Assembly: GCF_963675165.1 (NCBI RefSeq)
Contig: NC_087386.1
Coordinates: forward strand, 1,812,669-1,876,668
Direction of reading: 5' to 3'
From: Halichondria panicea
Taxonomy: Eukaryota > Porifera > Demospongiae > Suberitida > Halichondriidae
Length of the DNA stretch: 64,000 bases
The position numbers and the translations under genes were made by a program. The notes below the pieces were generated by a model. It was not told where the DNA came from and made no database searches. It saw nothing but the letters and a program-made list of their open reading frames with translations. Shown one piece after another: positions 1 through 59,893 of this stretch (position 1 is its first letter; the number at the start of each line of letters is the position of its first letter).

Positions 1-1641
1 CTGGGTGACGGAGCAATCATTCCATCTCCTCCTGATCTCAATAGTTTAAGTTATTTCAGACACTTCATTACTTGGAACAGAGACTCATTGAATAGTTTTC
101 TTGACTTTGACCTCACTACAGCAACGGCTGGGATTACTGCTATAGAATTCAGTTTCTTGAACACTCCTGCCAACAGAATCAGTTTGCCAGAACCTAGACT
201 ATCTGTTATTGAATATTCCCCAGGCCTGACAGATCGAAATGAAACAAATATTACAACCTGGATACTTAACAATCAAGATCTGACTCAGACAGACAACCAA
301 ATCAGAACTATTAGCATTCGGCCATTTCCACCACTTAGTGCTGCGAACCTCAGAATTAGGTTTCAGTTTACAGTATTTCATGATTTTGATTGGGTCTTTC
401 TGAGTGAAATACAATTTTGCACACGGTCTCAACATCCTTTTCAACTTCAGGCTCTAATCTTTCAAACACCATCATCAATTGTTGTTCAGCCAAGTGCAGA
501 CGACCTGAGAAGACGATCAACAGAGTTAGTGTGTACTATTTCCAGTGAAGGATTGTACGTATGGCAGTGGAAGAGAGACAATGCTATCATAATGATGGAG
601 AATAACGGGGACTACAGAATCACCATTGGAGACGGAAGCAGAACTACTAAGAGTTGACGATTAACAATCTGGACTTTAGTGATGCTGATAATTATGAATG
701 CATAGCAACAACAACACACGATGTGGATTTAAGGAACTCAACAGTGTATTTAGTGGAGTTTCCAGGTACCTAATTTACTTGATATATAACTATTAAATTG
801 TTGTTTTTTCCATTCTAGAGCATGTCATTACTACACCTGATGTCAGTGCGTATCTACAGACTGGAGAGGTTACCCTGACCTGTGAGCTCCATGTTTACCA
901 GTCATCACTCTCTCCTCTTGTGTGGCTGGACTTGGGTGGTAGTGAAACAAATTACTCTACCAAACACACTGTATCTGTGTATGAAGGAAACAACACCATA
1001 ATTCTACAAATGGCACTGTCTTCCCTAGTATCATTTTGGACATCACAATTCACAACCTTTCATTAGCTGATGGAGGTACCTACACGTGTCGTGGTGTCAG
1101 AGGAGATAGTGTCACTCAACTCACAATATTAGAAGGGACTGATCCAAACATGTTATCACAAACATGCATCTCTACGTCTATAGAGGGTGAGTAAACTGTG
1201 ACTGAGTTTACTTTCATTATACATTTTATATGCCTATTATCAGTAAAAAATTATGACTTGCTTTCTACTGGTTATTATTCTCTCATATTTACTGCAGGTA
1301 TCACCCCCACTCTACCCCCTGGCAACGAAACTACCATTCGTGTTCCTATAATGAACGAAGCCATTGTCACCACAGCAGCTGCAGTAGGGAGTGTTATTAT
1401 AGTACTCACATTACTTCTCATAATCTTCATCGTTTATCTATTGAGGAAGATCAACAAGATGAAAATACGCTCAACTGAAGCTGTACAAGTACCTAATTCT
1501 CTCTCCATACAAGAAAGGGAGGACACCTCAATTTCTGTGCAGGATGTGACGTATGAAGAGATTGCCGAAAGACACGACATGTTATTGACAAAGAACGAAG
1601 CCTACATGTGTGTGTCGACTCCTCTAGAAAATATAAATTAG
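1..1641 (+). pseudogene. U1: Ig receptor unit, 4-exon class, 5' end outside window, frameshifted
   Basis: Exons are <1-765 (rest of N-domain plus Ig1), 819-1186 (Ig2) and 1298-1641 (stalk, membrane helix, tail). Exon 1 lies upstream of the window. Two lesions break the frame. Near 651 the normally invariant Thr-Lys-Leu codons carry two extra bases, giving a stop at 655-657. Near 1010 one base is missing from the Gln-Asn-Gly codons of Ig2. The last exon is open and ends with the usual YEEI and Y-x-C-V tail, here YMCV instead of YVCV. The two lesions do not compensate, so no full receptor is predicted unless they are assembly errors. Confidence 0.8.
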
Positions 1642-2205
1642 AAATTAACATTTCACTGAGCAGACCTGTAACATTATCCTGTGTTTGCATACCATTTACC
1701 TGATACTTTAATTTTCTCTATCTGTAAAAACATTTTGTGTGTTACCTGTGTACAATAGTAATTCCATTTAAGAAGCGATCTGAGAATGCTTTATAATAAA
1801 CCACCTGTTCCTGGGAAACCCACAATAGTGACAAAGACGTCCAAACAGCGAGTTAGACCCCCTGTGGGGAGATTAAGCCCAATGTCAAACGAAAGCCTAT
1901 AAAGTCGAAATATCTGTAGTATAGCGGACATGCATGTTCCATTGAGATCATGTTAGTATGTCTAAGTATTTTGCGGTATTAAATTGAGCAACTGAGAGTT
2001 GACTCATGAACACTGGTGTTTGTGATTGTTTGTCAAACAGTGACATTATTTGTTAAACTTTTCCAATTCATGCGTAATCCTTCCACTATATAATTTGTTC
2101 CATTCTGCATGCCCCCATTCTGAGTAGATACTGCAACTCTTGTACACATATTCATAGCTAAAGTTGTACTAACACAAACTAGCTCTTGCTCTAATCTGAG
2201 CAGTC
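1642..2205. other. Intergenic U1-U2, class I 3' flank and U2 upstream region
   Basis: Holds the AATAAA signal of U1 (1795-1800), embedded in a proline-rich relic reading frame (about 1786-1905) that is out of frame here because of one extra G. The last 60 bases match the regions upstream of U6 and U15/U16. No other gene was seen. Confidence 0.6.
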
Positions 2206-3971
2206 ATGATTCTATTTCTAACTGCTCTGCTCATCAGTGGCTATTGTGATGCTCTCACTTGTAATCAAACAGGTAAATTTAGGCAGACATTTAAAGACTT
2301 ATTTTCATATTGTATTCCAACCAATTAGTCCTTCCTACACTGTATCGAGGTCTGTGGTTAGATGGTGATCCAATTACATACAACGATGTTCTGATCACCT
2401 ATCCATCAAATTGTACACAGAGGAGCATTCTTGCTAGATATATTGTCTGTGATTACGGTGTTGTACTGGGTGACGGAGCAATCATTCCATCTCCTCCTGA
2501 TCTCAATAGTGCAAGTTATTTCAGACATTTCATTACTTGGAATAGAGATTCATTGAAAAGTTTTATTGACTTTGACCTCACTACAGCAACGGCTGGGATT
2601 ACTGCTATAGAGCTCAGTTTCTTGAACAGTCCTGCCAGTGGAATCAGTTTGCCAGAACCTAGACTATCTGTAGTTGAATATACCCGAGGCCTGAGAGATC
2701 GAAGTGAAGCAAGTATTACAACCTGGATATTCGATAATCAAGATCTGTCTCAGACAGACAACCAAATCAGAACTATTAGCATTCGGCCATTCCCACTATT
2801 AAGTGCTATGAACCTCAGAATTATGTTCCAATTCACAGCGTTTCATGATTTTGATTGGGTCTTTCTGAGTGAAATACGATTTTGCACACAGCCTCAACCT
2901 CCTTTTCAACTTCAGGCTGTAATCCTTCAAACACCATCATTGATTGTTGTTCAGCCAAGTGCAGACGATCTGATAAGAGGATCAACAGAGTTAGTGTGCA
3001 CTGTTTCCAGTGAAGGATTGTACGTATGGCAGTGGAAGAGGGACAACGCTATCATAATGATGGAAAATATAAGCCAATACAGAATCACCATTGGAGACGG
3101 AAGCAGAACAACTAAGTTGAGGATTAACAATCTGGACTTTAGTGATGCTGCTAATTATGGATGCATAGCAACAACAACACACGATGTGGATTTAATGAAC
3201 TCAACAGTGTATTTAGTGGAGTTTCCAGGTACTTAAATTACTTAATACATGACTAATTAACTTGCTGTTCCTTCCATTCTAGAGCGTGTCATTACTACAC
3301 CTGATGTCAGTAGATATCTACAGACTGGAGAGGTTACCCTGACCTGTGAGCTCCATGGTTACCAGTCATCACTCTCTTCTCCTGTGTGGCTGGACTTGGG
3401 TGGCAGTGAAATAACTACCACTACAAAATACACTCTGTCTTTGCGTGAAGGACTCAACACCATAATTCTACAGAATGGCACTCTTGTCCCTAGTATCATT
3501 TTAGACATCACAATTCACAACCTTTCATCAGCCGATGGAGGTACCTACAGGTGTCGTGGTGTCAGAGGAGAGAGTGTCACTCAACTCACAATAGTGGAGA
3601 GTACAGCCCCTCCCACTACACCACCTCCTCCAACCACACCCCATTTGACTACTCGTTCAACGCAGCCTACGTTAGCACCTAATAACCAGTTGCCTCCTGT
3701 ACATATTTTAGTATCCGTAGTAACCATCCTAGTCATTGCATTACTTCTCTTCATTGTCTTTATCGTTTGCCTTCTGAGGAAGATAAAGAAAAAGAAATCG
3801 TTACTGACTGAAGCTGTAAAAGTACCTAATCTACTCTCCGTAAAAGAAAAGTGTTCAATTTCTGTGCAGGATGTGATATATGAAGAGATAGCTGAAAGAC
3901 GTGACATGTCATTGACAAAGAACGAAGCCTACGTGTGTGTGTCGACTCTTAGACAACCAAAAAGTTATTAA
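2206..3971 (+). CDS. U2: Ig-domain receptor, 551 aa, 3-exon class, intact (reference unit)
   Basis: Exons 2206-2272, 2329-3228 and 3283-3971 join in frame with phase-1 GT-AG introns of 56 and 54 bp. The protein begins with a signal peptide (residues 1 to about 17). The N-domain (about 20-200) carries four cysteines and ends in the FLSEIRFC block; I do not recognise its family, although its beta-rich pattern resembles a galactose-binding jelly roll. Ig1 (about 215-322) shows the C, WQW and D-A-A-x-Y-x-C pattern, although the residue before the last Cys is Gly. Ig2 (about 330-428) ends in AD-G-G-T-Y-R-C. A Thr/Pro stalk (429-463), a membrane helix (464-487) and a basic stop-transfer follow. The tail has Tyr522 in VIYEEI, Tyr539 in YVCV and a C-terminal Tyr551. 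It is probably a cell-surface receptor signalling through SH2 proteins; the ligand is unknown. Confidence 0.85.
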
Positions 3972-4041
3972 CATTATCCTGGACTAATTTGTCAATGTCT
4001 GTGTTAATAGTTTGTATTAGTGAATTAGTTTTGTGCAAAAT

Positions 4042-4441: not shown

Positions 4442-6393
4442 ATGATTCTATTTCTAACTGCTCTGCTCATCAGTGGCTATTGTGATGCTCTCACTTGTAA
4501 TCAAACAGGTAAATGTAAGCATATAGATACTATAAAATTTATAGTATCTGGTTTAAGCTACTATTTTGAAGACTTATTTTCATGTTGTATTATCCAACCA
4601 ATTAGTCCTTCCTACACTGTATCACGGTCTGTGGTTAGATGGTGATCCAATTACATACAACGATGTTCTGATCACCTATCCATCAAATTGTATACGGAGG
4701 AGCATTCTTGAAAGATTCACTGTCTGTGATTACAGTGTTGTACTGGGTGACGGAGCAATCATTCCATCTCCTCCTGATCTCAATAGTGCCAGTTATTTCA
4801 GACATTTCATCTCTTGGAACAGAGACTCGTTGAATAGTTTTATTGACTTTGACCTCACTACAGCAACGGCTGGGATTACTGCTATAGAACTCAGTTTCTT
4901 AAACAGTCCAGTCAATGGAATCAGTTTGGCAGAACCTAGACTATCTGTTATTGCATATGGTCCAGGCTTTAGAGATCAAACGGAAACAAATATCACAACC
5001 TAGATACTTGACAATCAAGATCTGACTCAGGCAGACCACCAAATCAGAACTATTAGCATTCTGCCACTCACACCACTTAGTGCTGCGAACCTCAGAATTA
5101 GGTTTCAGTTTACAGTGTTTCATGATTTTGATTTAGTCTTTCTGAGTGAAATACGATTTTGCACACAGCTTCCTTTTCAACTTTAGGCTCTAATCTTTTA
5201 AACACCATCATCAATTGTTGTTCAGCCAAGTGCAGATGACCTGAGAAGAGGATCAACAGAGTTAGTGTGCACTGTTTCCAGTGAAGGATCGTACATATGG
5301 CAGTGGAAGAGAAATAACACTTTTTTAGAAAATAATGGTGACTACAGGATCACCATTGGAGACGGAAGCAGAACAACTGAGTTGACGATTAACAGTCTAG
5401 ACTTTAGTGATGCTGCTAATTATGAATGCATAGCAACAACAACACACGATGTGGATTTAAGGAACTCAACAGTGTATTTAGTGGAATTTCCAGGTACCTA
5501 AATTACTTGATACAAATTGCCATTCTTCACCCTGCATGTACTCGTGCACATGTTCACCTATTAAATGTATATTACTGTCCTTCCATGTCGTTTCCACATC
5601 TGGAAATAGTGTATGTATACTGGTACCTAAGCATATCTTTCGCAAACTGTTTGTTACTGTCCTCCTTTTTCTTTTTATAGAGCATGTCATTACAATACCT
5701 GATGTCAGTGGATATCTACAAACTAGAGAGGTTATCCTGACCTGTGAGCTCCATGGTTACCAGTCATCATTCTCTCCTCCTGTGTGGTTCGACTTGGGTG
5801 GCAGTGAAATAACCGCATCTACAAAATCAAAATACACCATCACTTCTGATGAAGGAGGGAACACCATCGTTTTTGAGAATGGCACTGCTATCCCTAGTGT
5901 GATTGTCTGGCTTAGAATTCGAGATCTATCATCAGCCGATGGAGGTACCTACATGTGTCGTGGTGTCAGAGGAGGAGAGAGTGTCACTCAACTTGTGATT
6001 ATTGCAGAAGGGAAATCCCCTCCCACTACACCACCTCCCACTACTGCACTACCTGTGACTACTCAGCACACATCAGCATCTAATAATGTTTTGCTACCAA
6101 CAGTACATAGATTAGTATCTGTAGTAACTATCCTAGTGATTGTATTACTTCTCCTCATTGTCTTCATCGTTTACCTACTGAGGAAGAAGATCAACAAGAT
6201 AATACATTCCTTAATACGCTCGACTGAAGCTGTACAAGTACCTAATTCTCTCTCCATACATATACAAGAAAGGGAAGACACCTCAATTTCTGTGCAGAAT
6301 GTGACCTATGAAGAGATTGCCGAAAGAAGCGTTATGTCATTGACAAAGAACGAAGCCTACGTGTGTGTGTCGACTCCTCCTCTAGAAAAATAG
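4442..6393 (+). pseudogene. U3: Ig receptor unit, 3-exon class, three nonsense codons
   Basis: Exons 4442-4508, 4606-5493 and 5681-6393 keep frame and have the same lengths as intact U18. Exon 2 has three stops: 5001-5003 (TAG where U18 has TGG), 5184-5186 (TAG for CAG) and 5199-5201 (TAA for CAA). All three are transitions, and the two units otherwise differ at few positions. Intron 1 contains an 11-bp stem hairpin (4525-4549). Exon 3 encodes the Ig2 form with ITSDEGGN, a short Thr/Pro stalk, the membrane helix and a tail whose tyrosine motif reads NVTYEEI. This is probably a recent pseudogene copy; RNA-level rescue cannot be judged from DNA. Confidence 0.8.
4525..4549. repeat. Perfect 11-bp hairpin in intron 1 of U3
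   Basis: AGATACTATAA, then AAT, then TTATAGTATCT: a perfect inverted repeat inside the 97-bp first intron. The same hairpin occurs in U18 (about 39114-39138). Other units have introns of 44-72 bp here and lack it. Confidence 0.6.
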
Positions 6394-7082: not shown

Positions 7083-9041
7083 ATGATTCTATTTCTAACT
7101 GCTTTGCTCATCAGTGGCTATTGTGATGCTCTCACTTGTAATCAAACAGGTGAGCTTAAACATACATTTGAAGATTAATGTTATATTGTATTCCAACTGT
7201 TTTAGTGAACCCTACGACGTATCGACGTCTGTGGTCAGATACTGGGAATGATTACAATGGTGTTCCCATTACCTATCCACCAAATTGTATGCGGCAAAAT
7301 CTCCATGAAATCTGTAACTACGACCTGGTACTGGGTGACGGAGCAATCATTGCATCTCCTCCTGATCTCAATAGTTCAAGTTATTTCGAGCATTTCATTG
7401 GGATGAGTGCATCAATGAATTCGTATATTGACTTTGACCTCACTACAGTAACCGCTGGGATTACTGCTATAGAGCTCAGTTTCTTGAACAGTCCTCCCAA
7501 CAGAATCAGTTTACCAGACATTGCAATATCAGTAGTTTATTTTGGAACTGTAGCACCTATTGCAAGCTGGATATTTGATAATCAAAATCTTGATCAGACA
7601 GACAACCAAATCAGAACTATTAGTATTCAGCCATTCAGACCATTTAGTGCTGCGAACTTCAGAATTACGTTTCAATTCACAGAATTTCATGATTTTAATT
7701 GGGTCTTTGTAAGTGAAGTACGCTTTTGTACAGACCTTCAACCAAACTTACAACCAGAAGTAATATTTCAAATGCCACCATCAAACAATATCCAGCCAGA
7801 TGCAGAGGACCTGAGAAGAAGATCAACAGAGTTAGTGTGCACTGTTTCCAGTGAAGGTTCGTACACATGGCAGTGGAAGAAAGATAATGTTATAATAGTG
7901 AATAAAGGGGACTACAGAATCACCATTGGAGATGAAAGTAGAACAACTAAGCTGACAATCAATAATCTAGATTTTAGTGATGCTGCTGAATATGAATGTA
8001 CGGGAATGACAAGACGAGATGCGAATGTCATGAACTCAGCAGTGTATGTACTGGAATTTCCAGGTACCTAAACATCTTACCAGGAGTACATTAAGTACTC
8101 CTGCTCTTACTTATATACATATTGTTTGTTGCTGTCTTCCTTTTTTTAGAGGTACCTAAACATCTTACCAGGAGTACATTAAGTACTCCTGCTCTTACTT
8201 ATATACATATTGTTTGTTGCTGTCTTCCTTTTTTTAGAGCGTGTCATTACTACACCTGATGTCAGTGGATATCTACAGACTGGAGAGGTTACCCTGACCT
8301 GTGAGCTCCATGGTTACCAGTCATCACTCTCTCCTCCTGTGTGGCTAAACACAAATGGCAGTGAAATAAATGACTCTGCCAAATACACTGTGTCCGTGTG
8401 TGAAGGAAACAACACCATGATTCTACAGAATGGCACTGTCGTCCCTAGTATCATTTTCAACATCACAATTCACAACCTTTCATTAGCTGATGGAGATACC
8501 TACACGTGTCGTGGTGTCAGAGGAGAGAGTGTCACTCAACTCACAATATTAGAAGGGACTGATCCAAACATGTTATCGCAAACATGCATTTCTACGTCTA
8601 TAGAGGGTGAGTAAACTGTGACTGAGTTTACTTTCATTATACATTATACATGCTTATTATCAGAAACAATTATAACTTAGTTTCGTATTTATTACTGCAG
8701 GCATCACTCCCACTCCATCCCCTGGCAACGAAACTACCACTCGTGTTCCTGTAATGGATGAAACCACTGTCATCATAGCAGCTGCAGTAGTGGCTGTTAT
8801 TATAGTACTCACAATACTTATCCTCATAATCTTCATCGTTTACCTACTGAGGAAGATCAACAAGATGAAAATACGTTTGACTGAAGCTGTACAAATACCT
8901 AATTCTCTCTCCATACAAGAAAGGGAAGACACCTCAATTTCTGTGCAGGATGTGACGTATGAAGAGATTGCCGAAAGAAGCGTCATGTCATTAACAAAGA
9001 ACGAAGCCTACGTGTGTGTGTCGACTCCTCTAGAGAAATAG
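7083..9041 (+). CDS. U4: Ig-domain receptor, 544 aa, 4-exon class, NPTTYRR type, intact
   Basis: Exons 7083-7149, 7206-8063, 8238-8606 and 8701-9041 join in frame. The N-domain belongs to a second type: it starts NPTTYRRLWSDTGNDYNG, has one fewer acidic loop, and has MPPSNNIQPDAEDL in the linker. Ig1 ends in a TRRDANV strand instead of TTHDVDL. Ig2 is the NTNGSE type, and the exon ends at SIEG. The last exon starts GITPTPSPGNETTTR and encodes a membrane helix with a run of Val/Ile, then YEEI (Tyr about 512) and YVCV. Intron 2 is a tandem duplication of an 88-bp unit, so two AG/GT junctions are available. U19 is the near-identical but frameshifted copy. Role as in U2, ligand unknown. Confidence 0.83.
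8063..8238 (+). repeat. Tandem duplication of an 88-bp intron unit in U4
   Basis: The segment from the exon-2 splice site to the acceptor is present twice (8063-8150 and 8151-8238), essentially identical. U17 and U19 have one copy. Each copy holds a donor, a 9-bp stem hairpin (CAGGAGTAC, ATTAA, GTACTCCTG) and an acceptor. The intron may be removed as one 174-bp unit (8064-8237) or in two steps through the internal AG|GT at 8150-8153. Confidence 0.75.
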
Positions 9042-9761: not shown

Positions 9762-11639
9762 ATGATTCTATTTCTAACTGCTCTGCTCATCAGTGGCTAT
9801 TGTGATGCTCTCATTTGTAATCAAACAGGTGAGCTTAAGCAGACATTTGAAGATTAATGTCATAGTAACTGTATTCCTAATGTTTTAGTGAACCCTATGA
9901 CGTATCGACGTCTGTGGTCAGATATTGGGAATGATTACAATGGTGTCCCCATCACCTATCCACCAAATTGTATGCGGCAAAATCTTCAGGAAATCTCCAT
10001 CCTCTGTGACTATGATGTGGTACTGGGTGACAGAGCAATCATTCCATCTCCTCCTGATCTCAATACTTCAAGTTATTTCGAGCATTTCATTGGGATGAGC
10101 AACTCAGTGAATTCGTATATTGACTTTGACCTCACTACAGCAACGGCTGGGATTACTGCTATAGAGCTCAGTTTCTTGAACAGTCCTACCAACAGAATCA
10201 GTTTGCCAGACATTACAATATCAGTAGTTCATTTTGGAGCTGTATCGCTTATTGCAAGCTGGATATTTGATAATGAACATCTTGATCAGACAGACAACCA
10301 AATCAGAACTATTAGTATTCAGCCATTCACACCACTTAGTGCTGTGAACCTCAGAATTAGGTTCCAATTCACAGTGCTTCATGATTTTGATTGGATCTTT
10401 CTGAGTGAAGTACGCTTTTGTACAGACCTTCAACCAAACTTACAACCAGAAGTAACATTTCAAATACCACCATCAAACAATATACAGCCAAGTGCAGAGG
10501 ACCTGAGAAGAGGATCAACAGAGTTAGTGTGCACTATTTCCAGTGAAGGTTCATACACATGGCAGTGGAAGAGAGACAATGCTATGATAGAAAATAAAGG
10601 GGACTACAGAATAACCATTGGAGATGGAAGTAGAACAACTAAGTTGACAATCAACAATCTAGAGTTTAGTGATGCTGCTGAATATGAATGTACGGTAATG
10701 ACAAGACTGGATGCGAATGTCAGGAACTCAACAGTGTATGTACTGGAGTTTCCAGGTACTTAAATATCATACTTACACTACACTATGATTTTTTGTGATG
10801 TTCATTCCATTTTATAGAGCATGTCATTACAACACTTGATGTCAGTGGACATCTACTGACTGGAGAGGTTACTCTGACCTGTGAGCTCCATGGTTACCAG
10901 TCATCACTCTCTCCTCCTGTGTGGCTAAACACAAATGGCAGTGAAACAAACGACTCTACCAAATACACTGTGTCCGTGTTTGAAGGAAACAACACCATAA
11001 TTCTACAGAATGGCACTGTCGTCCTTAGTATTATTCTGAGCATCACAATTCACAACCTTTCATCAGTTGATGGAGGTACCTACACGTGTCGTGGTGTCAG
11101 AGGAGAGAGTGTCACTCAACTCACAATATTGGAAGGGACTGATCCAAACATGGTATCGCAAACATGCATTTCTACGTCTATAAAGGGTGAGTAAACTGTG
11201 ACTGAGTTTACTTTCATTTTACATTTTATATGTCTATTATCAGAAACAATTATAACTTAGTTTCTACTGCATTGTTATTATTCTCTCGTATTTACTGCAG
11301 GCATCACTCCCACTCCACCCCCTGGCAATGAAACTACCACTCGTGTCCCTGTAATGGATGAAACCATTGTCATCATAGCAGCTGCAAGTAGGGAGTGTTA
11401 TTATAGTACTCACAATACTTATCCTCATAATCTTCATCGTTTACCTACTGAGGAAGATCAACAAGATGAAAATACGTTTGAATGAAGCTGTACAAGTACC
11501 TAATTCTCTCTCCATGCAAGAAAGGGAAGACACCTCAATTTCTGTGCAGGATGTGACATATGAAGAAATTGCCGAAAGAAACGACATGTTATTGACAAAT
11601 AACGAAGCCTACGTGTGTGTGTCGACTCCTCTAGATTAA
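9762..11639 (+). pseudogene. U5: Ig receptor unit, 4-exon class, frameshift in membrane helix
   Basis: Exons 9762-9828, 9889-10755 and 10818-11186 are intact and encode signal peptide, NPMTYRR-type N-domain, Ig1 and Ig2 (exon ends SIKG). Exon 4 starts at 11301. One extra A near 11388, in the Ala-Ala-Ala run before the membrane helix, shifts the frame, and translation stops at 11483-11485. The predicted product has both Ig domains but a hydrophilic Cys/Tyr/His-rich tail of about 35 residues in place of the helix. It could therefore be secreted, if expressed. The original tail frame remains open to 11639 with its YEEI and YVCV codons. Confidence 0.75.
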
Positions 11640-14662: not shown

Positions 14663-14697
14663 TAATATATAGTATAGTTACTATAATCTGAGCAATC

Positions 14698-46255: not shown

Positions 46256-48010
46256 ATGATTCTATTTCTAACTGCTCTGCTCATCAGTGGCTATTGTGAT
46301 GCTCTCACTTGTAATCAAACAGGTAAGGTTAGGCAGACATTTCAACATTTATTTTCATAATTATTGTATTCCAACCAATTAGCCCTTCCTACACTGTATC
46401 GAGGTCTGTGGTTAGATGGTGATCCAATTACATACAACGATGTTCTGATCACATATCCATTAAATTGTATATGGCCGAACATTCTTAAAAAAATCAATGT
46501 CTGTGATTACAGTGTTGTACTGGGTGACGGAGCAATCACCCCATCTCCTCCTGATCTCAATAGTTCAAGTTATTTCAGACATTTCATTTCTTGGAATAGA
46601 GACTCGTTGAATAGTTTTATTGACTTTGACCTCACTACAGCAACGGCTGGGATTACTGCTATTGAGCTCAGTTTCTTGAACAGTCCAGCCAATGGAATCA
46701 GTTTGCCAGAACCTAGACTATCTGTAGTTGAATATACCCGAGGCCTGAGAGATCGAAGTGAAATAAGTATAACAACCTGGATATTTGATAATCAAGATCT
46801 GGCTCAGACAGACAACCAAATCAGAACTATTAGCATTCGGCCATTCACACCACTTAGTGCTGTGAATCTCAGAGTTAGGTTCCAATTCACAGTGCTTCAT
46901 GATTTTGATTGGGTCTTTCTGAGTGAAATACGATTTTGCACACAGCCTCTACCTCCTTTTCAACTTCAGGCTCTAATCTTTCAAACACCATCATCAATTG
47001 TTGTTCAGCCGAGTGCAGACGATCTGAGAAGAGGATCAACAGAGTTAGTGTGCACTATTTCGGATGAAGGATTGTACATATGGCAGTGGAAGAGAGACAA
47101 AGCTATCATATCGATGGAAAATATAAGCCAATACAGAATCACCATTGGAGACGGAAGCAGAACAACTAAGTTGAGGATTAACAATCTGGACTTTAGTGAT
47201 GCTGCTGATTATGAATGCATAGCAACAACAACACAGGATGTGGATTTAAGGAACTCAACAGTGTATTTAGTGGAGTTTCCAGGTACCTAAATTACTTAAT
47301 ACATGACTAATTAACTTGCTGTTCTTTCCATTCTAGAGCATGTCATTACTACACCTGATATCAGTGAGTATATACAGACTGGAGAGGTTACCCTGACCTG
47401 TGAGCTCCATGGTTACCAGTCATCACTCTCTCCTCCTGTGTGGCTAGACTCGGGTGGCAGTGAAATAAATACCACTACCAAATACACTGAGTCTGTGTGT
47501 GAAGGAACTAACACCATAATTCTACAGAATGGCACTGTCGTCCCTAGTATAATTTTGGACATCACCATTCACAATCTTTCATCAGCTGATGGAGGAGGTA
47601 CCTACACGTGTCGTGGTGTCAGAGGAGAGAGTGTCACTCAACTCACAATAGTGGAGGGTACAGCCCCTCCCACTGCACCACCTCCTCCAACCACACTCCA
47701 TTTGACTACTCGTTCAACGCAGCCTACGTTAGCACCTAATAACCAGTTGCCTCCTGTACATATTTTAGTATCCGTAGTAACCATCCTAGTCATTGCATTA
47801 CTTCTCTTCATTGTCTTTATCGTTTGCCTTTTGAGGAAGATAAGGAAAAAGAAATCGTTTTTGACTGAAGCTGTAAAAGTACCTAATCTACTCTCCGTAA
47901 AAGAAAAGTGTTCAATTTCTGTGCAGGATGTGATATATGAAGAGATAGCTGAAAGAAGCGTCATATCATTGACAAAGAACGAGGCCTATGTGTGTGTGTC
48001 GACTCTTTAA
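46256..48010 (+). CDS. U21: Ig-domain receptor, 546 aa, 3-exon class, intact copy of U9
   Basis: Exons 46256-46322, 46383-47282 and 47337-48010 join in frame. The linker is FQLQALIFQTPSS, with CAG where U9 has TAG. The N-domain carries NCIWPNILKKINVCDYS, unlike U9 (NCTQYFFASFTACDYS), so the first third of exon 2 and the signal exon come from a different source than the rest, which matches U9 closely. Ig1 has DEGLYIWQWKRDKAIISMEN. Exon 3 has TKYTESVCEGTN, the Thr/Pro stalk, the membrane helix, VIYEEI, YVCV and the STL end. Confidence 0.85.
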
Positions 48011-48529: not shown

Positions 48530-50348
48530 ATGATTCTATTTCTAACTGCTCTGCTCATCAGTGGCTATTGTGATGCTCTCACTTGTAATCAAACAAGTGA
48601 GCTTAAGCAGACATCTGAAGACTTATTATTTTTAATTCAATGTTGTATTATCCAACCGATTAGCCATTCCTACACTGTATCGAGGTCTGTGGTTAGATGG
48701 TGATCCAATTACATACAACGATGTTCTGATCACCTATCCATCAAATTGTACATGGAGGAGCATTCTTGAAAGATTCATTGTCTGTGATTACAGTGTTGTA
48801 CTGGGTGACGGAGCAATCATTCCATCTCCTCCTGATCTCAATAGTGCAAGTTATTTCACACATTTCATTGCTGCTTGGAACAGAGACTCATTGAATAGTT
48901 TTATTGATTTTGACCTCACTACAGCAACGGCTGGGATTACTGTTATAGAGCTCAGTTTCTTGAACAGTCCTGCCAGTGGAATCAGTTTGCCAGAACCTAG
49001 ACTATCTGTAGTTGAATATAACCCAAACCTTAGTGTTCGAAACGAAACAAATATTATAACCTGGGTATTTGATAATCAAGATCTGACTCGAATAGACAAC
49101 CAAATCAGAACTATTAACATTCGGCCACTCACACCACTTAGTGCTGCGAACCTCAGAATTAGGTTTCAATTCACAGTGTTTCATGATTTTGATTGGGTCT
49201 TTCTGAGTGAAATAAGATTTTGCACACAGCCTCAACCTCTTTTTTAACTTATTAACGCTGTCATACTTCGAACACCATCATCGATTATTGTTCAGCCAAA
49301 TGCAGGGGACCTGAGAAGAGGATCAACAGAGTTAGTGTGTACTATTTCGGGTGAAGGATCGTACGTATGGCAGTGGAGGAGAGACAATGCTATCATAATG
49401 ATGGAAAATGGTGAGTACTACAGAATCACCATTGGAGACGGAAGCAGAACAACTAAACTGATGATTAACAATCTGGAATTTAGCGATGCTGCTAATTATG
49501 AATGCATAGCAACAACAACACACCATGTGGATTTAATGAACTCAACAGTGTATTTAGTGGAATTTCCAGGTACCTAAATTACTTGATACAAATTGCCATT
49601 CTACACCCTGCATGTACTCGTGTACATATTCACCTATTAAATGTATATTGCTGTCCTTCCTTTCTAGAACATGTCGTTTCCACATCTGGTGTGTGTGGGT
49701 ATCTACAGACTGGAGAGGTTACCCTGACCTGTGAGCTCCATGGTTACCAGTCATCACTCTCTCCTCCTGTGTGGCTGGACTTGGGTGGCAGTGAAATAAC
49801 CGCATCTACAAAATACACCATCACTTCTGGTGAAGGAGGGAACACCATCGTTTTTGAGAATGGCACTGCTATCCCTAGTGTGATTGTCAGGCTTAGAATT
49901 CGAGATCTATCGTTAGCCGATGGAGGGAACTACACGTGTCGTGGTGTCGGAGGAGGAGAGAGTGTCACTCAACTTGTGATTACAGAAGGGACAGCCCCTC
50001 CCACTACTGCACTACCTGTGACTACTCAGGGCACGTTAGCACCTAATAATGTTTTGCTACCAACAGTACATGGATTAGTGTCCATAGTAACTATCCTAGT
50101 GATTGCATTACTTCTCCTCCTTGTCTTCATCGTTTACCTACTGAGGAAGAAGATCAACAAGATAATAAACTCCTTAATACGTTCGACTGAAGCTGTACAA
50201 GTACCTAATTCTCTCTCCATACAAGAAAGGGAAGACACCTCAATTTTTTGTGCAAGACGCGACATATGAAGAGATTGCCGAAAGAAGCAACATGTTATTG
50301 ACAAAGAACGAAGCCTACGTGTGTGTGTCGACTCCTTTAGAAAAATAG
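48530..50348 (+). pseudogene. U22: Ig receptor unit, 3-exon class, copy of U10 with own lesions
   Basis: Exons 48530-48596, 48664-49569 and 49668-50348. The signal exon ends CAA|GTGAGC instead of CAG|GT, a weaker donor. TAA at 49245-49247 (CAA elsewhere) stops translation in the linker, 2-3 codons from the U9 site. One extra T near 50245 in the tail shifts the frame so that the YEEI and YVCV codons are read out of frame. U10 has neither lesion but has its own linker stop, so the two copies were inactivated independently. Confidence 0.82.
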
Positions 50349-51405: not shown

Positions 51406-53279
51406 CTATTTTCTAGAGGAGTCGACACACACGTAGGCTTCGTTCTTTGTCAATAACATGTCATTTTTTTCGGCGATCTCTTCATATGTCACATCCTGCA
51501 CAGAAATTGAGGAGTCTTTCCTTTCTTGCATGGAGAGAGAATTAGGTACTTGTACAGCTTCAGTCGAACGTATTTTTATCTTGTTGATCTTCCTCAGTAG
51601 GTAAACGATGAAGATTATGAGGATAAGTATTGTGAGTACTATAATAACACTCCCTACTGCAGCTGCTATGATGACAATAGTTTCATCCATTACAGGGACA
51701 CGAGTGGTAGTTTCGTTGCCAGGGGGTGGAGTGGGGGTGATACCTGCAGTAAATATGAGAGAATAATAACCAGTAGAAAGCAAGTCATAATTTTTTACTG
51801 ATAATAGGCATATAAAATGTATAATGAAAGTAAACTCAGTCACAGTTTACTCACCCTCTATAGACGTAGAGATGTATGTTTGTGATAACATGTTTGGATC
51901 AGTCCCTTCTAATATTGTGAGTTGAGTGACACTCTCTCCTCTGACACCACGACACGTGTAGGTACCTCCATCGGCTGACGAAAGGTTGTGAATTGTGATG
52001 TTGAAAATGATACTAGGGACGACAGTGCCATTCTGTAGAATTATGGTGTTGTTTCCTTCACACACGGACACCGTGTATTTGGTAGAGTCATTTGTTTCAC
52101 TACCATTTGTGTTTAGCCACACAGGAGGAGAGAGTGATGACTGGTAACCATGGAGCTCACAGGTCAGGGTAACCTCTCCAGTCTGTAGATATCCACTGAC
52201 ATCAGGTGTAGTAATGACATGCTCTAAAAAAAGGAAGACAATAACAAACAGTATGTATATAAGTAAGAGGTTTAGGTACCTGGAAACTCCAATACATACA
52301 CTGCTGAATTAACGACATTCGCATCTCGTCTTGTCATTACCGTACATTTATATTCAGCAGCATCACTTATAAAGTCTAGATTGTTGATTGTCAGCTTAGT
52401 TGTTCTACTTCCGTCTCCAATGGTGATTGTGTAGTCGCCGTTATTTACTATCATAACATTATCTCTCTCCCACTGCTGTACGAACCTTCACTGGAAACAG
52501 TGCACACTAACTCTGTTGATCTTCTTCTCAGATCACCCGCACTTGGCTGTATATAGTTTGATGATGGCGTTTGAAATGTTACTTCTGGTTGTTGAAGGTC
52601 TGTGCAAAAGCGTACTTCACTCAGAAAAAACCAATCAAAATCATGAAGCACTGTGAATTGGAACCTAATTCTGAGGTTTGCAGCACTAAGTGGTGGGAAT
52701 GGCCGAATGCTAATAGTTCTGATTTGGTTGTCTGTCTGAGCCAGATCTTGATTATCAAATATCCAGGTTGTTATACTTGTTTCGTTTCGATCCCTAAGGC
52801 CTGGGGTATATTCAATAACAGATAGTCTAGGTTCTGGCAAACTGATTCTGTTGGCAGGACTGTTCAAGAAACTGAAGTCTATAGCAGTAATCCCAGTCGT
52901 TGCTGTAGTGAGGTCAAAGTCAATAAAACTATTCAATGAGTCTCTGTTCCAAGCAATGAAATATCTGACATAACTTGCACTATTAAGATCAGGAGGAGAT
53001 GGAATGATTGCTCCGTCACCCAGTACCACACTATAATCACAGGCAGTGAATCTAGCAAAAAAATACTGTGTACAATTTGATGGATAGGTGATCAGAACAT
53101 CATTGTATGTAATTGGATCACCATCTAACCACAGACCTCGATACAGTGTAGGAAGGACTAATCGGTTGGAATACAACATTAAAATAATTCGATGCTACTT
53201 AAACTTATATACCTGTTTGAGTGCAAGTGAGAGTATCACAATAGCCACTGATGAGCAGAGCAGTTAGAAATAGAATCAT
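51406..53279 (-). pseudogene. U23: inverted Ig receptor unit, 4-exon class, 4-bp deletion in Ig1
   Basis: On the minus strand the exons are 53279-53213, 53157-52280, 52223-51855 and 51743-51406. A 4-base deletion near 52483 removes the Trp codon of the Ig1 WQW core and shifts the frame, with a stop at 52451-52453. Exon 2 is a recombinant: LPTLYRG-type N-domain up to FFLSEVRFCTDLQ, then a U4-type linker and Ig1 ending TRRDANVVNSAVYVLEF. One extra codon sits in the DFISDAAEY block. The tail has VTYEEI, but two bases are missing after YVCV, so it ends DSSRK. Confidence 0.8.
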
Positions 53280-53606
53280 GATTGTTCAGTTAAGAGCCTG
53301 TTAGTCCAACCGATTTTAAATTATGAGTAGACTACATGTATAAAATTATAGGCGGAAATTGATATGTTTTTAAGAGTGGAATTATAGAAAGTAAATTTGT
53401 GGTATGCATATGAGAATGGGTTCAATCAAACGCATCCATGAATTGACAAATTGAAATGATTTGCACATCGTCACAGTGTACTGAGGTATATAATATAGCT
53501 AGTTTGCATAATCTGCAGTAATAATTTGACAACTTTATACAGATAATGTCAATGTTTGATATACGGTGTTCATGAATCAACTCTCTGTTGCTCAATTCTC
53601 TTTAAT
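53280..53606 (-). promoter_or_regulatory. Inverted upstream region of U23
   Basis: On the minus strand this holds the AATCGGTTGGACTAACAGG block and the leader found before U11 and U14, so the U23 promoter moved together with its gene. The right edge is the inversion breakpoint at 53606. Confidence 0.45.
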
Positions 53607-55430
53607 GGCTATTGTGATGCTCTCACTTGTAATCAAACTGGTAAGCTTAAGCAAACATTTGAAGGCTTATTTTCATATTGTATTTTTACCAATTAGTTCT
53701 TCCTACACTGTATCGAGGTCTGTTGTTGGATGGTGATCCAATTACATACAATGATGTTCTGATCACTTATCCATCAAATTGTACACAGAGAAACTTTTTT
53801 GCTAGATACATCTGTGATTACAGTGTGATACTGGGTGACAGAGCAATCATTCCATCTCCTCCTGATCTCAATAGTGCAAGTTATTTCAGACATTTCATTG
53901 CTTGGAACAGAGACTCATTGAATAGTTTTATTGACTTTGACTTCACTACAGCAACGGCTGGGATTACTGCTATAGAGCTCAGTTTCTTGAACAGTCCTGC
54001 CAACAGAATCAGTTTGCCAGAACCTAGACTATCTGTAGTTGAATATAACCCAAACCTTAGTGTTCGAAATGAAACAAGTATTACAACCTGGATACTTGAT
54101 AATCAAGATCTGGCTCAGACAGACAACCAAATCAGAACTATTAGCATTCGGCCACTCACACCACTTAGTGCTGTGAACCTCAGAATTAGGTTCCAATTCA
54201 CAGTGTTTCATGATTTTGATTGGGTCTTTCTGAGTGAAATACGATTTTGTACACAGTCTCAACTACCTTTTCAAATTAAGGCCACAATCTTTCAAACACC
54301 ATCATCAATTGTTGTTCAGCCGAGTGCAGACGATCTGAGAAGTGGATCAACAGAGTTAGTGTGCACTATTTGGGATGAAGGATCGTACGTACGTATGGCA
54401 GTGGAAGAGGGACAACGCTATCATAATGATGGAAAATATAAGCCAATACAGAATCACTATTGGAGACGGAAGCAGAACAACTAAGTTGACGATTAACAAT
54501 CTGGACTTTAGTGATGCTGATAATTATGAATGCATAGCAACAACACACGATGTGGATTTAATGAACTCAACAATGTATTTAGTGGAGTTTCCAGGTACGT
54601 AAATATAGTTGCGTTATACTGTTTAATCCTTCCATACTATATAGAGCATGTCATTACTGCACCTGATGTCAGTGGATATCTACAGACTGGAGAGGTTGTT
54701 ACCCTGACCTGTGAGCTCCATGGTTACCAGTCATCACTCTCTCTCCTCCTGTGTGGCTGGACTCGGGTGGCAGTGAAATAACTACCACTACAAAATACAC
54801 TCTGTCCGTATGTGAAGGACTCAACACCATAATTCTACAGAATGGCACTGTCGTCCCTAGTATTATTTTAGACATCACAATTCACCACCTTTCATCAGCT
54901 GATGGAGGGAACTACACGTGTCATGGTGTCAGAAGAGAGAGTGTCACTCAACTCACAATATTAGAAGGAACTGATCCAAACATATTATCACAAACATGGA
55001 TTTCCTCATCTATAGAGGGTGAGTAAACTGTGATAATTATGCATAACAATTTTACAATAACTTGGTTTTTGATTCAGGTATCACCCCCACTACATCCCCT
55101 GGCAACGAAACTACCACTCATGTCCCTATAATGGACGAAACCATTGTCACCATAGCAGCTGCTGTAGTGACTGTTATTATAGTACTCACAATACTTCTCC
55201 TCATAATCTTCATTGTTTACCTACTGAAGAAGAAGATCAACAAGATACTACATTTCTTAGTACGCTCGACTGAAGCTGTACAAATACCTAATTCTCTCTC
55301 CATACAAAAAAGGGAAGACACCTCAATTTCTGTGCAGGATGTGACGTATGAAGAGATTGCCGAAAGAAGCGTCATGTCATTGACAAAGAACGAAGCCTAC
55401 GTGTGTGTGTCAACTCTTCTAGAAAAATAG
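53607..55430 (+). pseudogene. U24: Ig receptor unit, decapitated by inversion, frameshifted
   Basis: Exon 1 survives only as 53607-53640 (GYCDALTCNQT codons). Its ATG, hydrophobic core and promoter lie reversed at 50717-51350. Exon 2 (53697-54594) has a duplicated TACG near 54390 that shifts the frame inside the Ig1 WQW core. Exon 3 (54645-55018) has an in-frame extra Val codon and an extra CT near 54740 that breaks Ig2. Exon 4 (55078-55430) is open, with a longer juxtamembrane segment (KKKINKILHFLVRS), VTYEEI and YVCV. Intron 3 is only 59 bp. Confidence 0.85.
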
Positions 55431-56099: not shown

Positions 56100-57902
56100 A
56101 TGATTTTATTTCTAACTGCTCTGCTCATCAGTGGCTATTGTGATGCTCTCACTTGTAATCAAATAGGTATAAGTTTAAGTAGCATCGAATTATTTTAATG
56201 TTGTATTCCAACCAATTAGCCCTTCCTACACTGTATCGAGGTCTGTGGTTAGATGGTGATCCAATTACATACAACGATGTTCTGATCACCTATCCATCAA
56301 ATTGTACATGGAGGAGCATTCTTGAAAGATTCATTGTCTGTGATTACAGTGTTGTGCTGGGTGACGGAGCGATCATTCCATCTCCTCCTGATCTCAATAG
56401 TGCAAGTTATTTCAGACATTTCATCTCTTGGAACAGAGACTCGTTGAATAGTTTTATTGACTTTGACCTCACTACAGCAACGGCTGGGATTACTGCTATA
56501 GAACTCAGTTTCTTAAACAGTCCAGTCAATGGAATCAGTTTGCCAGAACTTAGACTATCTGTTATTGAATATGGTCCAGGCTTTAGAGATCAAACGGAAA
56601 CAAATATCACAACCTGGATACTTGACAATCAAAATCTGACTCAGGCAGACCACCAAATCAGAACTATTAGCATTCAGCCATTCCCACCACTTAGTGCTGC
56701 GAACCTCAGAATTATGTTCCAGTTCACAGTGTTTCATGATTTTGATTTAGTCTTTCTGAGTGAAATACGATTTTGCACACAGCCTCCTTTTCAACTTCAG
56801 GCTCTAATCTTTCAAACACCATCATCAATTGTTGTTCAGCCAAGTGCAGACGACCTGAGAAGAGGATCAACAGAGTTAGTGTGCACTATTTCCAGTGAAG
56901 GTTCGTACGTATGGCAGTGGAGGAGAGACAACACTTTTTTAGAAAATAATGGTGACTACACAATCACCATTGGAGACGGAAGCAGAACAACTAAGTTGAA
57001 GATTAACAATCTGGACTTTAGTGATGCTGCTAATTATGAATGCATAGCAACAACAACACAGGATGTGGATTTAAGGAACTCAATAGTGTATTTAATGGAG
57101 TTTCCAGGTACCTAAATTACTTGATACAAATTGACATTCTACACCTGCATGTACTCGTGCACATATTCACCTATTAAATGTATATTGCTGTCCTTCCTTT
57201 CTAGAACATGTCGTTTCCACATCTGGTGTGTGTGGGTATGACTATCTACAGACTGGAGAGGTTACCCTGACCTGTGAGCTCCATGGTTACCAGTCATCAC
57301 TCTCTCCTCCTGTGTGGCTAGGCTTGGGTGGCAGGGAAATAACCGCATCTACAAAATACACCATCACTTCTGGTTCAGGAGGGAACACAATTGTCTTTGA
57401 AGATGGCACTGCTATCCCTAGTGTGATTGTCAGCCTTACAATTCACAATCTATCATCAGCCGATGGAGGGAACTACACGTGTCGTGGTGTCAGAGGAGGA
57501 GAGAGTGTCACTCAACTTGTGATTGCAGAAGGGACAGGCCCTCCCACTACACCACCCCCTCTCACTACTGCACTACCTGTGACTACTCAGCACACGTTAG
57601 CACCTAGTAATGTTTTGCTACCAACAGTATTAGTATCCATAGTAACTATTCTAGTGATTGCATTACTTCTGCTCATTGTCTTCATCGTTTACCTACTGAG
57701 GAAGAAGATCAAGAATATAGTAAATTCCTTAATACGCTCGACTGAAGCTGTACAAGTACCTAATTCGCTCTCCATACAAGAAAGGGAGGACACCTCAATT
57801 TCTCTGCAGGATGTGACGTATGAAGAGATTGCCGAAAGAAGTGTCATGTCATTGACAAAGAACGAAGCCTACGTGTGTGTGTCAACTCCTCTAGAAAAAT
57901 AG
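56100..57902 (+). CDS. U25: Ig-domain receptor, 550 aa, 3-exon class, intact
   Basis: Exons 56100-56166, 56220-57107 and 57205-57902 join in frame. The signal exon ends CNQI (Thr to Ile), and its second Leu codon is TTA. The N-domain is close to U18 but has LPELRLSVIEYGPGF. Ig1 carries RRDNTFLENNGDYTITIGDG. Exon 3 is the VVSTSGVCGY subtype with a two-residue insertion (GYDYLQTGEV), GLGGREITAS and FEDGTAIPS. The stalk is Pro/Thr-rich. The membrane helix is followed by KKIKNIVNS, and the tail has SLQDVTYEEI and YVCV, ending TPLEK. It is the last intact member before the array edge. Confidence 0.85.
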
Positions 57903-58580
57903 ACAGCCAAAAAATTAACCTTTTACTGCATGAGCAGCTCTTTAACATTATCCTGGACTAATTTATCATGTCTATTGTTTATCCATTACATTTTGTGCAT
58001 AATTCTATTTAGTACCCTGACACTTTAGATTTGTCTATATAGCTTATAAACATACCGTGTGTTGCATTGTGTGTGTGTTTGTACTTCTATATGAGTTGCT
58101 TCACACACATTCTAGCAATTTGAGAATGCTGTTTAATAAACCACCTGTTCCTAGGAAACCCACAATAGCGACGAAGCCGTCCAAACAGCCAGTTATACCC
58201 CCTGTGGAGATTAAGCCCAATGTCAAACCAAAGCCTTATTTTAACAATATTGCTTGGTATAGCAAAACTGTTCAAATCTACAGGCATGTGATATGTAGAA
58301 GATAAGTATTTTTGGAAGTGGGGATAATATTGAGCAACAGAGATTTGATTCATGAACACTGATATTTGACATTATATCAGTGATATATACCTCAGCACAT
58401 GTTGACGTCCCTATAATATGTGCTGATTATTCGATTTGTCGATTTGTCACTTCATGCATGCGTACTTTCCATTCTACATGTCCCATATATTTGGCTATAT
58501 ATTGGCCTCTCATACACATGCATGACTGTATATACATCACTAATTCATCATGCTGAAGTTGGTCTTGTCTTTAACTGCTA
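57903..58580. other. Intergenic U25-U26, class I 3' flank
   Basis: AATAAA at 58135-58140. The proline-rich relic here has its longest open frame (listed separately). The U26 upstream region resembles that of U4 and U19. Confidence 0.5.
58116..58305 (+). other. Proline-rich relic or alternative C-terminal exon (best copy)
   Basis: After a TTCTAG acceptor-like site at 58110-58115 the frame reads NLRMLFNKPPVPRKPTIATK, continues SKQPVIPPVEIKPNVKPKP and is open to 58305. Most copies have PPVPGK, a PxxPx[K/R] class II SH3-ligand pattern. About 17 array flanks contain this segment. In U11, U15, U16 and U25 it is open; in others it has stops or frameshifts. It overlaps AATAAA, which alone might explain conservation of its first part. 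Confidence 0.4.
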
Positions 58581-59893
58581 ACTGCTCTGCTCATCAGTGG
58601 CTATATAATTATTGTGATGCTCTCACTTGTAATCAAGGTAAATATAGAAGTAGACATTTGAAGATTAATGTCATTTTGTATTCCAACTGTTTTAGTGAAC
58701 CCTACGACGTATCGACGTCTGTGGTCAGATATTGGGAATGATTACAATGGTGTTCCCATTACCTATCCACCAAATTGTATGCTGCAAATTCTTTAAGAGA
58801 TCTCCATCCTTTGTGACTATATGATGTGGTACAGAGCAATCATTCCATCTCCTCCTGATCTCAGTTACTGCTCAGTTTCTTGAACAGTCCGCCAACAGAA
58901 TCAGTTTGCCAGACATTACAATATCAGTAGTTCATTATGGAATTTCAAGCTGGATATTTGATAATGAAGATCTGGCTCAGACAGACAACCAAATCAGAAC
59001 TGTTAGTATTCAACCATTCAAACCACTTAAAGCCCTGACCCTCAGAATTAGGTTCCAATTCACAGCATTGCATGATTTGATTGGGTCTTTCTGAGTGAAA
59101 TACGCAACCAACTTTACAACCAGAAGTTTATAACATTTCAAATGACATCGTCAAATATTATCCAGCCAAGTGCAGACGACCTGAGAAGAGGATCAACAGA
59201 ATTAGTGTGCACTGTTTCCAGTGAAGGATTGTACGTATGGCAGTGGAAGAGAGATAATGCTATAATAGAAAATAAAGGGGGCTACAGAATCACCATGTGT
59301 GAAGGAAACAACACCATAATTCTACAGAATGGCACTGTCGTCCCTAGTATCATTTTCAACATCACAATTCACAACCTTTTATCAGCTGATGGAGGTAACT
59401 ACACGTGTCGTGGTGTCAGAGGAGAGAGTGTCACTCAACTCACAATAGTAGAAGGGACTGATCCAAATATATTATCCCAAACGTCTATGAAGGGTGAGTG
59501 TTTAAATAGTGACTGATTTTGTTTTCATTATACACCTATAATGATATCAATAATTATATGTTTGGTTTCAATACTTAATTAACAGCTGTAAACACGATTG
59601 TTTTTACAGTAAATATTACCCCCACTCCACCCCCTGGCAACGAAACTACCACTCGTGTCTCTGGGAGGGACGAAACCATTGTCACCATAGCAGCTGCAGT
59701 AGTGACTGTACTCATCATCAACACTGAAGCTGTACAAGTACCTAATTCTCTCTCCATACAAGAAAGGGAGGACACCTCAATTTCTGTGCAGGATGTGACA
59801 TAGGAAAAGATTGCCGAAAGGAGCAGTATGTTATTGACAAAGAACGAAGCCTACATGTGTGTGTCAACCCTTCTATACCTAGACAGCAACTAA
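58581..59893 (+). pseudogene. U26: heavily degraded Ig receptor unit at the array edge
   Basis: The signal exon remnant (58581-58637) has lost its ATG to a deletion. Exon 2 starts at 58696 in NPTTYRR form but has stops and large losses, with most of the middle of the N-domain missing. Near 59295 the sequence jumps from the YRIT strand of Ig1 directly into the CEGNNT strand of Ig2, fusing the two half-domains and removing the intron. Exon 4 begins at 59610. The membrane helix is deleted (junction near 59709), and the first tail tyrosine codon is TAG (59800-59802). YMCV remains; the tail frame ends at 59893. Confidence 0.8.

Follow-up and report, generated by a model that had tools for sequence, protein, structure and literature searches.

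A tandem array of two-tyrosine Ig receptors in the sponge Halichondria panicea as the candidate kinase-less half of a paired receptor family

The 64,000-nucleotide stretch of the Halichondria panicea genome analysed here (contig NC_087386.1, positions 1,812,669 to 1,876,668, equal to C10:1812669-1876668 in our contig naming; hereafter the window) carries a tandem array of genes for short receptor-like proteins with two immunoglobulin (Ig) domains and a tail with two tyrosines. We consider it slightly favoured, with a probability of about 0.55, that the window carries one half of a paired system of receptors, namely docking receptors that lack a kinase, the other half being DDR-type tyrosine kinases. 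This reading is built on neighbouring genes in which the same ectodomain ends in a kinase, on ectodomain exons that appear to have been exchanged between the two classes, and on the recurrence of both ends in diverged ectodomain lineages.

Results

Organization of the array and its units

The units were read exon by exon, and genome searches covered 131.5 Mb in 39 contigs. The window holds 25 exons, whole or in pieces, that encode a first domain (here called the N domain) followed by the first Ig domain (Ig1), 24 of them on the forward and one on the reverse strand (units U09-U33). An orphan fragment with only the membrane helix and tail is present in addition, and the 26 related units counted in the sequence-only reading, made without database searches, are reached if it is included. 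Compared with U10, long copies are 75-93% identical over about 900 bases, far above chance. To the left, the array runs past the window edge to at least C10:1786142, 26.5 kb upstream, and the genome search places 36 whole or partial N domain+Ig1 exons in the whole kinase-less array, of which 33 were read (U01-U33).

Exon 1 of a unit has 67 bases and encodes a signal peptide (MILFLTALLISGYCDALTCNQT in U10), while exon 2, of about 900 bases, begins with the N domain, some 185 codons long, and continues through a linker into Ig1 (codons 1-185, 186-214 and 215-299 of exon 2 in U10). The 3′ part takes one of two forms, either a single exon with the second Ig domain (Ig2), a stalk, the membrane helix and the tail, or two exons split after Ig2. 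Pfam Ig matches were obtained in both Ig regions, over the cut-off for Ig1 of U10 (Ig_3, 2.6e-07) and for Ig1 and Ig2 of U32, and below it for Ig2 of U10. Exon reading and Pfam bear out the unit composition proposed earlier, in which a signal peptide and an unknown domain are followed by two Ig domains, the membrane helix and a tail with two tyrosines. An 18-base tandem repeat lies in the Pro/Thr stalk of U23 (35452-35499), and stalk length varies among units.

Ten window units with exons 1 and 2 judged open were spliced by script. Eight of them (U10, U12, U18, U19, U23, U25, U28 and U32) gave one open frame of 512-556 amino acids, with GT donors and AG acceptors throughout and all introns in phase 1. 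U14 is open through all exons but has a GC donor after exon 1, and splicing of U13 fails at a frameshift in the membrane helix, in the last exon. In the remaining 15 units, exon 2 is disrupted by nonsense codons, frameshifts or deletions, and the broken copies retain long open stretches. The earlier estimate that about one third of the units are intact agrees with 8 of 25, or 9 of 25 if U14 with its GC donor is counted.

Kinase-bearing paralogues

A genome-wide protein search with exon 2 of U10 as query revealed a second cluster of eight N domain+Ig1 exons (U34-U41) at C10:1911.8-1937.9k, 35 kb to the right of the window, as well as diverged copies at C10:1666-1712k, C10:196k and C6:6153k and weaker ones at C10:1561-1705k. 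In all eight genes of the second cluster, a DDR-type tyrosine kinase is found about 1.5 kb past the end of the N domain+Ig1 exon. This exon is 82-84% identical to that of U10 in six of the genes and 64% in U34, and the three pieces of U37 reach 76-82%. An open exon 2 is combined with an open frame of 599-607 amino acids, holding stalk, membrane helix, juxtamembrane region and kinase, in five of the eight (U34, U35, U36, U38 and U41); U37, U39 and U40 are broken.

The diverged copy L049 also ends in a tyrosine kinase, has Pfam matches over the cut-off for both Ig1 and Ig2, and carries its stalk, helix, juxtamembrane region and kinase in one open frame of 591 amino acids. When its kinase domain was compared with PDB sequences, the 11 best of 60 rows were all DDR1 or DDR2, with 266-286 bits; the 12th row was labelled EGFR (260.8 bits) and TrkC reached 225. 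The kinases of L049 and of the array are 80-85% identical. Altogether, 15 kinase genes at least 49% identical to the L049 kinase are located at C10:1.70-1.94 Mb (16 match rows, one gene being in two pieces), and four of them (at L062 and L063) have ectodomains that lack this N domain or in which the N region was left unaligned. At L062:4559-7831, a single frame of 1091 residues combines an extracellular-looking N region with a kinase whose juxtamembrane region is very long and packed with repeated tyrosine motifs, for example IYSDAD. Elsewhere in the genome, a Kringle domain (Pfam 1.1e-21) is joined to a tyrosine kinase at L061:3715-5349 (C9:2584k), which from its architecture we take to be a ROR/MuSK-like receptor.

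Ectodomains shared between the two classes

Exon 1 is nearly identical across kinase and kinase-less (short) genes, with 0-4 changes in 67 bases, and was found in seven of the eight kinase genes. In a tree of exon 2 with 43 rows, the kinase label needs six changes, at least five of which are forced by well-supported branches. The kinase gene U34 groups with the short unit U13 (support 100/98), U38 with U11, U25 and U32 (98/93), U37 and U39 with U07 (98/89), and the kinase gene L049 with the short gene L050 (100/99). A single clade of the eight array kinases was rejected with an approximately unbiased (AU) test p-value of 5.6e-97, and one of all nine kinases with 3.5e-120. The Ig2 tree is also interleaved, with six label changes, at least three of them forced, and it is discordant with that of exon 2: the Ig2 sequences of U11, U25 and U32 lie beyond a 100/100 branch from that of U38, their companion in exon 2.

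Synonymous divergence (pS) between the classes is about that within them. It amounts to 0.172 among short, 0.183 among kinase and 0.171 between short and kinase genes in the N domain, and to 0.197, 0.236 and 0.220, respectively, in Ig1. Exon 2 and Ig2 of the eight kinase genes were scanned for best matches in 64 segments of 150 bases. In 52 of these, the best short unit equalled or exceeded the best other kinase gene, a comparison in which the short units are favoured by being more numerous. The best match changes along the kinase genes in a mosaic pattern and is often a broken unit. Along exon 2 of U34, short units reach 91-97% identity and kinase genes 67-88%. In the segment immediately 5′ of exon 2, the only or best matches of seven kinase genes are to other kinase genes, U34 having no match there, and beyond the membrane helix this is so for all eight. 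These comparisons show that tails and flanks are class-specific. Because the trees are interleaved and pS between the classes is close to that within them, ectodomain exons have apparently been swapped between kinase and kinase-less genes, and a mosaic ectodomain with class-specific flanks is what cassette exchange between two output classes predicts.

Several observations weigh against the paired-receptor reading. The kinase label is not randomly placed on the exon-2 tree, since only 17 of 500 shuffles gave as few changes; U36/U40 and U37/U39 are each other's nearest relatives in exon 2; and a kinase sister is the best match in 12 of the 64 segments. The size of the AU p-values is not to be taken literally, because exchange itself breaks the assumption of one tree per exon. 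Moreover, the similarity of ectodomains could be the outcome of concerted evolution driven by closeness alone, with no selection for matching.

Three ectodomain lineages are each found with both kinase and short ends. The first is the array itself, with its short units and the kinases U34-U41. The second comprises the L049 kinase and L050, a short gene with a YEEI tail, which are 86% identical in the N domain and 87% in Ig1. The third consists of the kinases L057 and L058 and the short genes L055 and L059, with 75-84% identity in the N domain for the three pairs compared; the short tails of L055 and L059 have several tyrosines and no YEEI. The genome search with the L049 kinase gave no kinase match at L050, L055 or L059. 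Between the first and second lineages, the N domains share about half of their residues, and those of both are 22-33% identical to those of the third. The YEEI tail of L050, together with its membrane helix, is homologous to the corresponding part of the window units (E 4e-15 and 2e-18). Two ectodomains and two ends in all four combinations suggest either exchange or convergence. In addition, L051 carries the stalk and helix of L049 on yet another short tyrosine tail. The family member L059 is adjoined by a long reverse-strand frame (L059:3-1940) that by eye resembles a retroelement gag-pol polyprotein.

The two-tyrosine tail

All 32 tails scored contain YEEI and NEAY, with a tyrosine-to-tyrosine spacing of 17 in every case, in line with the invariant tail described from the letters alone; the search pattern itself required EE and EAY, and the count is that of the tails found (31 of units and the orphan). 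Two of the 33 short units that were read, U03 and U33, yielded no tail, and the open frame of U33 starts just past the first tyrosine. The second motif is YVCV in 30 tails, YVCL in one and YMCV in one.

The consensus of the immunoreceptor tyrosine-based activation motif (ITAM) is YxxL/I with 6-12 residues to the next YxxL/I, and a canonical ITAM is ruled out here by the 13 residues between the motifs, which is wider than this consensus. The inhibitory counterpart (ITIM) follows [ILVS]xYxx[ILV]. The first tyrosine site fits this hexamer in 29 of the 32 tails, three having A at position -2, and the second site, with E at -2, lies outside it. Src-family SH2 domains prefer pYEEI.

The ratio of nonsynonymous to synonymous divergence (pN/pS) of the tail is 0.36 over 30 codons in 29 units, and 0.33 in the 13 units with an open exon 2. 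For the short genes (11-14 units with an open exon 2), it is 0.61-0.65 in the N domain and 0.59-0.70 in Ig1, which shows that the tail is more constrained than the ectodomain. Mean pN/pS runs from 0.39 to 0.84 across all regions measured; each ectodomain region has a mean under 1, which gives no indication of gene-wide diversifying selection.

Block duplications and stops in the linker

The array carries marks of recent turnover. Block duplications connect 14676-21219 with 44140-50693 (97.6%), 3739-8151 with 38356-42730 (97.4%), and 24053-28533 with 46247-50717 (94.9%). In the near twins U11 and U25 (4606-5493 and 39195-40082), only 6 of 888 exon-2 sites differ, all by transitions, and three of the six are nonsense changes in U11.

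Leaving out the fragmented U22 and U33, exon 2 of the window units contains eight in-frame nonsense codons, seven of which fall within codons 192-208, in the linker between the N domain and Ig1. They occupy five codon positions in six units (U11, U16, U17, U20, U24 and U29), and if the TAG common to U11 and U16 is counted once, six of seven distinct events are in the linker. The chance of any such 17-codon cluster is 1e-4 to 2e-4 in a post hoc test weighted by codons one step from a stop. One further stop, in the kinase gene U37, lies outside the linker cluster. Provided that their RNA is stable, copies with a linker stop would give rise to a secreted N domain.

Identity of the N domain

Scans of the window units gave no convincing Pfam family for the N domain and no Ig match in it. 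Models of this domain form a beta sandwich. The structures that match it best, at middling Z-scores, are jelly rolls that bind carbohydrate or collagen, and the domain is perhaps a discoidin-like jelly roll. Discoidin-like is our best guess because the paralogues carry a DDR kinase. In comparisons of a profile of 13 N domains with the human DDR1 DS-like domain (P 0.014), none of 150 shuffles reached the local hhalign score (21.2, the best shuffle having 20.5) and one of 150 reached the global score.

Other results count against this assignment. The same comparison gave an hhalign probability of only 3%, and the N-domain profile matched no chain among PDB sequences. Only one of 13 sequences, the diverged L052, showed a weak match to the DS-like domain PF21114 (E 0.068, below the cut-off), and a genome search with PF21114 returned nothing over the cut-off. 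The AlphaFold models, made from window sequences alone, have low confidence, with a predicted local distance difference test (pLDDT) score of 41 and 56 and, for the second, a predicted template modelling (pTM) score of 0.61. Pfam scans of the window and paralogue exons found no F5/8C domain (PF00754).

Other features

Positions of all units are listed in Table 1. Outside the array, the window contains an Rfam match to the snoRNA SNORD57 at 61797-61864 (47.6 bits, cut-off 47). A weak Pfam match to TerC (E 0.0023, below the cut-off) at 63135-63500 on the reverse strand may represent an exon that an ordinary gene has at the window edge. In the genome, the Bcl-2 family is apparently expanded, with 17 PF00452 match rows, 11 of them on C3 (C3:862k-1623k). 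A Bcl-2 gene used to probe kinship with Geodia had no sponge sequence among 60 of its 214 match rows.

Table 1. Units and fragments of the kinase-less array within the window, in window coordinates.
Feature	Position	Strand	Description
U09	1..1641	+	Broken, frameshift in N domain+Ig1 exon; begins 134 bases outside the window; Ig2 and helix-tail on two exons
U10 exon 1	2206..2272	+	Signal peptide MILFLTALLISGYCDALTCNQT, phase-1 donor
U10 exon 2	2329..3228	+	N domain, linker, Ig1; intact
U10 exon 3	3283..3971	+	Ig2, Pro/Thr stalk, membrane helix, tail VIYEEI...NEAYVCV; intact
U11	4442..6393	+	Exon 2 with three nonsense codons, following exon open; U25 is a near twin
U12	7083..9041	+	Intact; diverged N-domain group; Ig2 and helix-tail on separate exons
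U12 tandem duplication	8062-8239	+	Perfect 88-base repeat, 2 copies, end of exon 2 through intron 2
U13	9762..11639	+	Frameshift in helix-tail exon, earlier exons open; exon 2 is sister of kinase gene U34
U14	12305..14057	+	All exons open; GC donor, not GT, at exon 1
Orphan helix-tail fragment	14396..14651	+	Without N domain+Ig1 exon
U15, U16, U17	14678..20871	+	Broken; within block duplicated at 44140-50693 (97.6%)
U18	21559..23438	+	Intact; Ig2 and helix-tail on two exons
U19	24064..25811	+	Intact
U20, U21, U22	26336..33420	+	Broken (nonsense, frameshift, fragmented)
U23	34031..35839	+	Intact
U24	36613..38594	+	Broken (nonsense in linker, frameshift)
U25	39031..40982	+	Intact; near twin of broken U11
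U26, U27	41672..45766	+	Broken
U28	46256..48010	+	Intact
U29	48530..50348	+	Broken (nonsense in linker; third exon broken too)
U30	51406..53279	-	Broken; sole inverted unit; N domain+Ig1 exon 52280-53157
U31	53598..55430	+	Broken
U32	56100..57902	+	Intact
U33	58578..59872	+	Decayed; last unit of the array on this side

Discussion

In regard to the nature of the array, the sequence-only reading saw an independent receptor complex with dynamics similar to those of the Hydractinia Alr, Botryllus FuHC and vertebrate KIR/LILR loci. The dynamics of birth and death stand, with 8-9 of 25 window units intact and block duplications of about 97%. Independence is not supported, as the ectodomain is common to the adjacent DDR-type kinases; because of this sharing, the array is not a free-standing immunoglobulin superfamily (IgSF) complex, but the kinase-less half of a receptor tyrosine kinase (RTK) family. 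The comparison with the three loci concerns the manner of working and does not extend to descent.

The product of an intact short gene is predicted to be a type I membrane protein that starts with a signal peptide and the N domain; the two Ig domains follow, then the Pro/Thr stalk, the helix and finally the tail that bears YEEI and NEAYVCV. Unequal crossing over or gene conversion, made easier by introns that all have the same phase, would exchange its ectodomain exons with those of the kinase genes, and both output classes would in this way keep the same binding properties. If the same ectodomain means the same ligand or mixed clusters, the kinase form would be able to phosphorylate the short form. 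On ligand binding or cell contact, it might do so at YEEI and NEAY of a kinase-less partner within a mixed cluster; alternatively, a Src-family kinase could phosphorylate both sites. The resulting pYEEI would then dock SH2 proteins, of the Src family or others, and the response would depend on which chains are present and in what ratio. The kinase-less chain could act as a docking co-receptor or as a brake, as in vertebrate paired receptors. The dynamics make recognition of self/non-self, kin or microbes a plausible use of such a system.

Another explanation is that these genes are allorecognition or innate-immune receptors proper, a polymorphic and copy-variable complex read out through kinases and YEEI tails, for which kinase pairing is just the mode of signalling. 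The turnover fits this explanation, as 16-17 of 25 window units are broken and multi-gene blocks were recently duplicated, and so do matched ectodomains with different ends. In PMC12018476, the Ig-domain RTK of Geodia cydonium, a sponge, is named as one of the early molecules on which immunity may have drawn. Mean pN/pS values, below 1 in all regions measured and taken from one assembly, do not speak for a role in recognition. We regard receptors of this kind as a possibility, on the unlikely side.

Slightly less probable are non-immune adhesion or matrix receptors, which would sense collagen or cell contact like DDRs and whose array grew by neutral duplication. DDR-type kinases and pN/pS below 1 are what such receptors would show, and DDRs bind fibrillar collagen by their discoidin domain, as stated in PMC6485061. 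Against them stand the Pfam scans, which found no F5/8C domain, the collagen-binding type, in the proteins scanned, and the dozens of copies in constant turnover, which would be unusual for a matrix receptor.

The sharing of an ectodomain by genes without a kinase, and the six window copies whose linker stop would leave a secreted N domain, could also point to decoys, that is, kinase-less traps or dominant negatives for the same ligand that damp the kinases and for which the tail is of minor importance. A pure decoy needs neither of the tyrosines found in all 32 tails, and the tail is the most constrained part measured in the short genes (0.33-0.36), which makes decoys unlikely. It is more improbable still that the broken copies serve as a store of sequence with which gene conversion rewrites the intact genes, as their long open stretches and the mosaic best matches to broken units along the kinase genes are equally predicted for a by-product of tandem duplication.

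Returning to the paired receptor family, its nearest described relative could be the Geodia Ig-domain RTK (Schaecke 1994; Blumbach 1999), which resembles the kinase paralogues in having two Ig-like domains, a DDR1-like kinase and an intron-free kinase region, as described in papers that cite this work. An Ig-like domain is reported in this receptor (PMC12018476), its catalytic region agrees by 59-61% with DDR1 (PMC10573612), its introns lie outside the kinase region (PMC5793068), and Geodia expresses proteins with two Ig-like domains (PMC3210614, citing Blumbach 1999). Unlike the Geodia RTK as described there, the Halichondria family forms a genomic array of dozens of genes, in which the ectodomain has an additional N domain, YEEI tails occur and kinase members apparently exchange sequence with kinase-less ones. 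Orthologues of DDR and Eph receptors are present in sponges and ctenophores according to PMC6485061, whereas a table in PMC8662651 dates the DDR kinase family to bilaterians. The kinase paralogues resemble DDR1 and DDR2 in the type of kinase domain and possibly in the N domain, if it corresponds to the DS-like domain. They differ from them in the two Ig domains and in that no F5/8C domain was found, and the window members have no kinase. The Geodia Ig-domain RTK and IgSF cDNAs have been in print since the 1990s, and we know of no described locus.

Likeness to KIR/LILR lies in near-identical ectodomains on different signalling ends, tandem arrays and exchange, and no homology is claimed. There, an ITIM is opposed to a charged helix with an adaptor, whereas here a whole tyrosine kinase is opposed to a YEEI tail. 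Polymorphism and homophilic binding are known for Hydractinia Alr, and both loci are clusters of established or candidate Ig-type recognition genes in an early-branching animal. In contrast to Alr, the first ectodomain domain here gives no Ig match, the two behind it are Ig domains, and relatives carry DDR-type kinases. The Alr family has 41 members (PMC11999971, citing Huene 2022), recent copies of pig LILR carry different disabling mutations, much as the array units do (PMC6182393 for pig LILR), and Botryllus fuhc has secreted and membrane forms (PMC3691228).

Put in its broadest form, the proposal would be that a paired-receptor immune or allorecognition complex evolved from discoidin-type RTKs in an early-branching animal, with one exchangeable ectodomain cassette kept in register on two outputs in three lineages and with a possible third, secreted output from the linker-stop copies. 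We offer this broader proposal tentatively and consider it doubtful as a whole.

The genes behind sponge self/non-self recognition are still debated, and for this old question the array and its kinase neighbours provide a defined genomic complex with named parts. If the proposal is true, the logic of KIR/LILR-type paired receptors would have arisen here from an unrelated starting point, namely a family of receptor kinases, and the conditions under which paired-receptor systems evolve would become a testable question.

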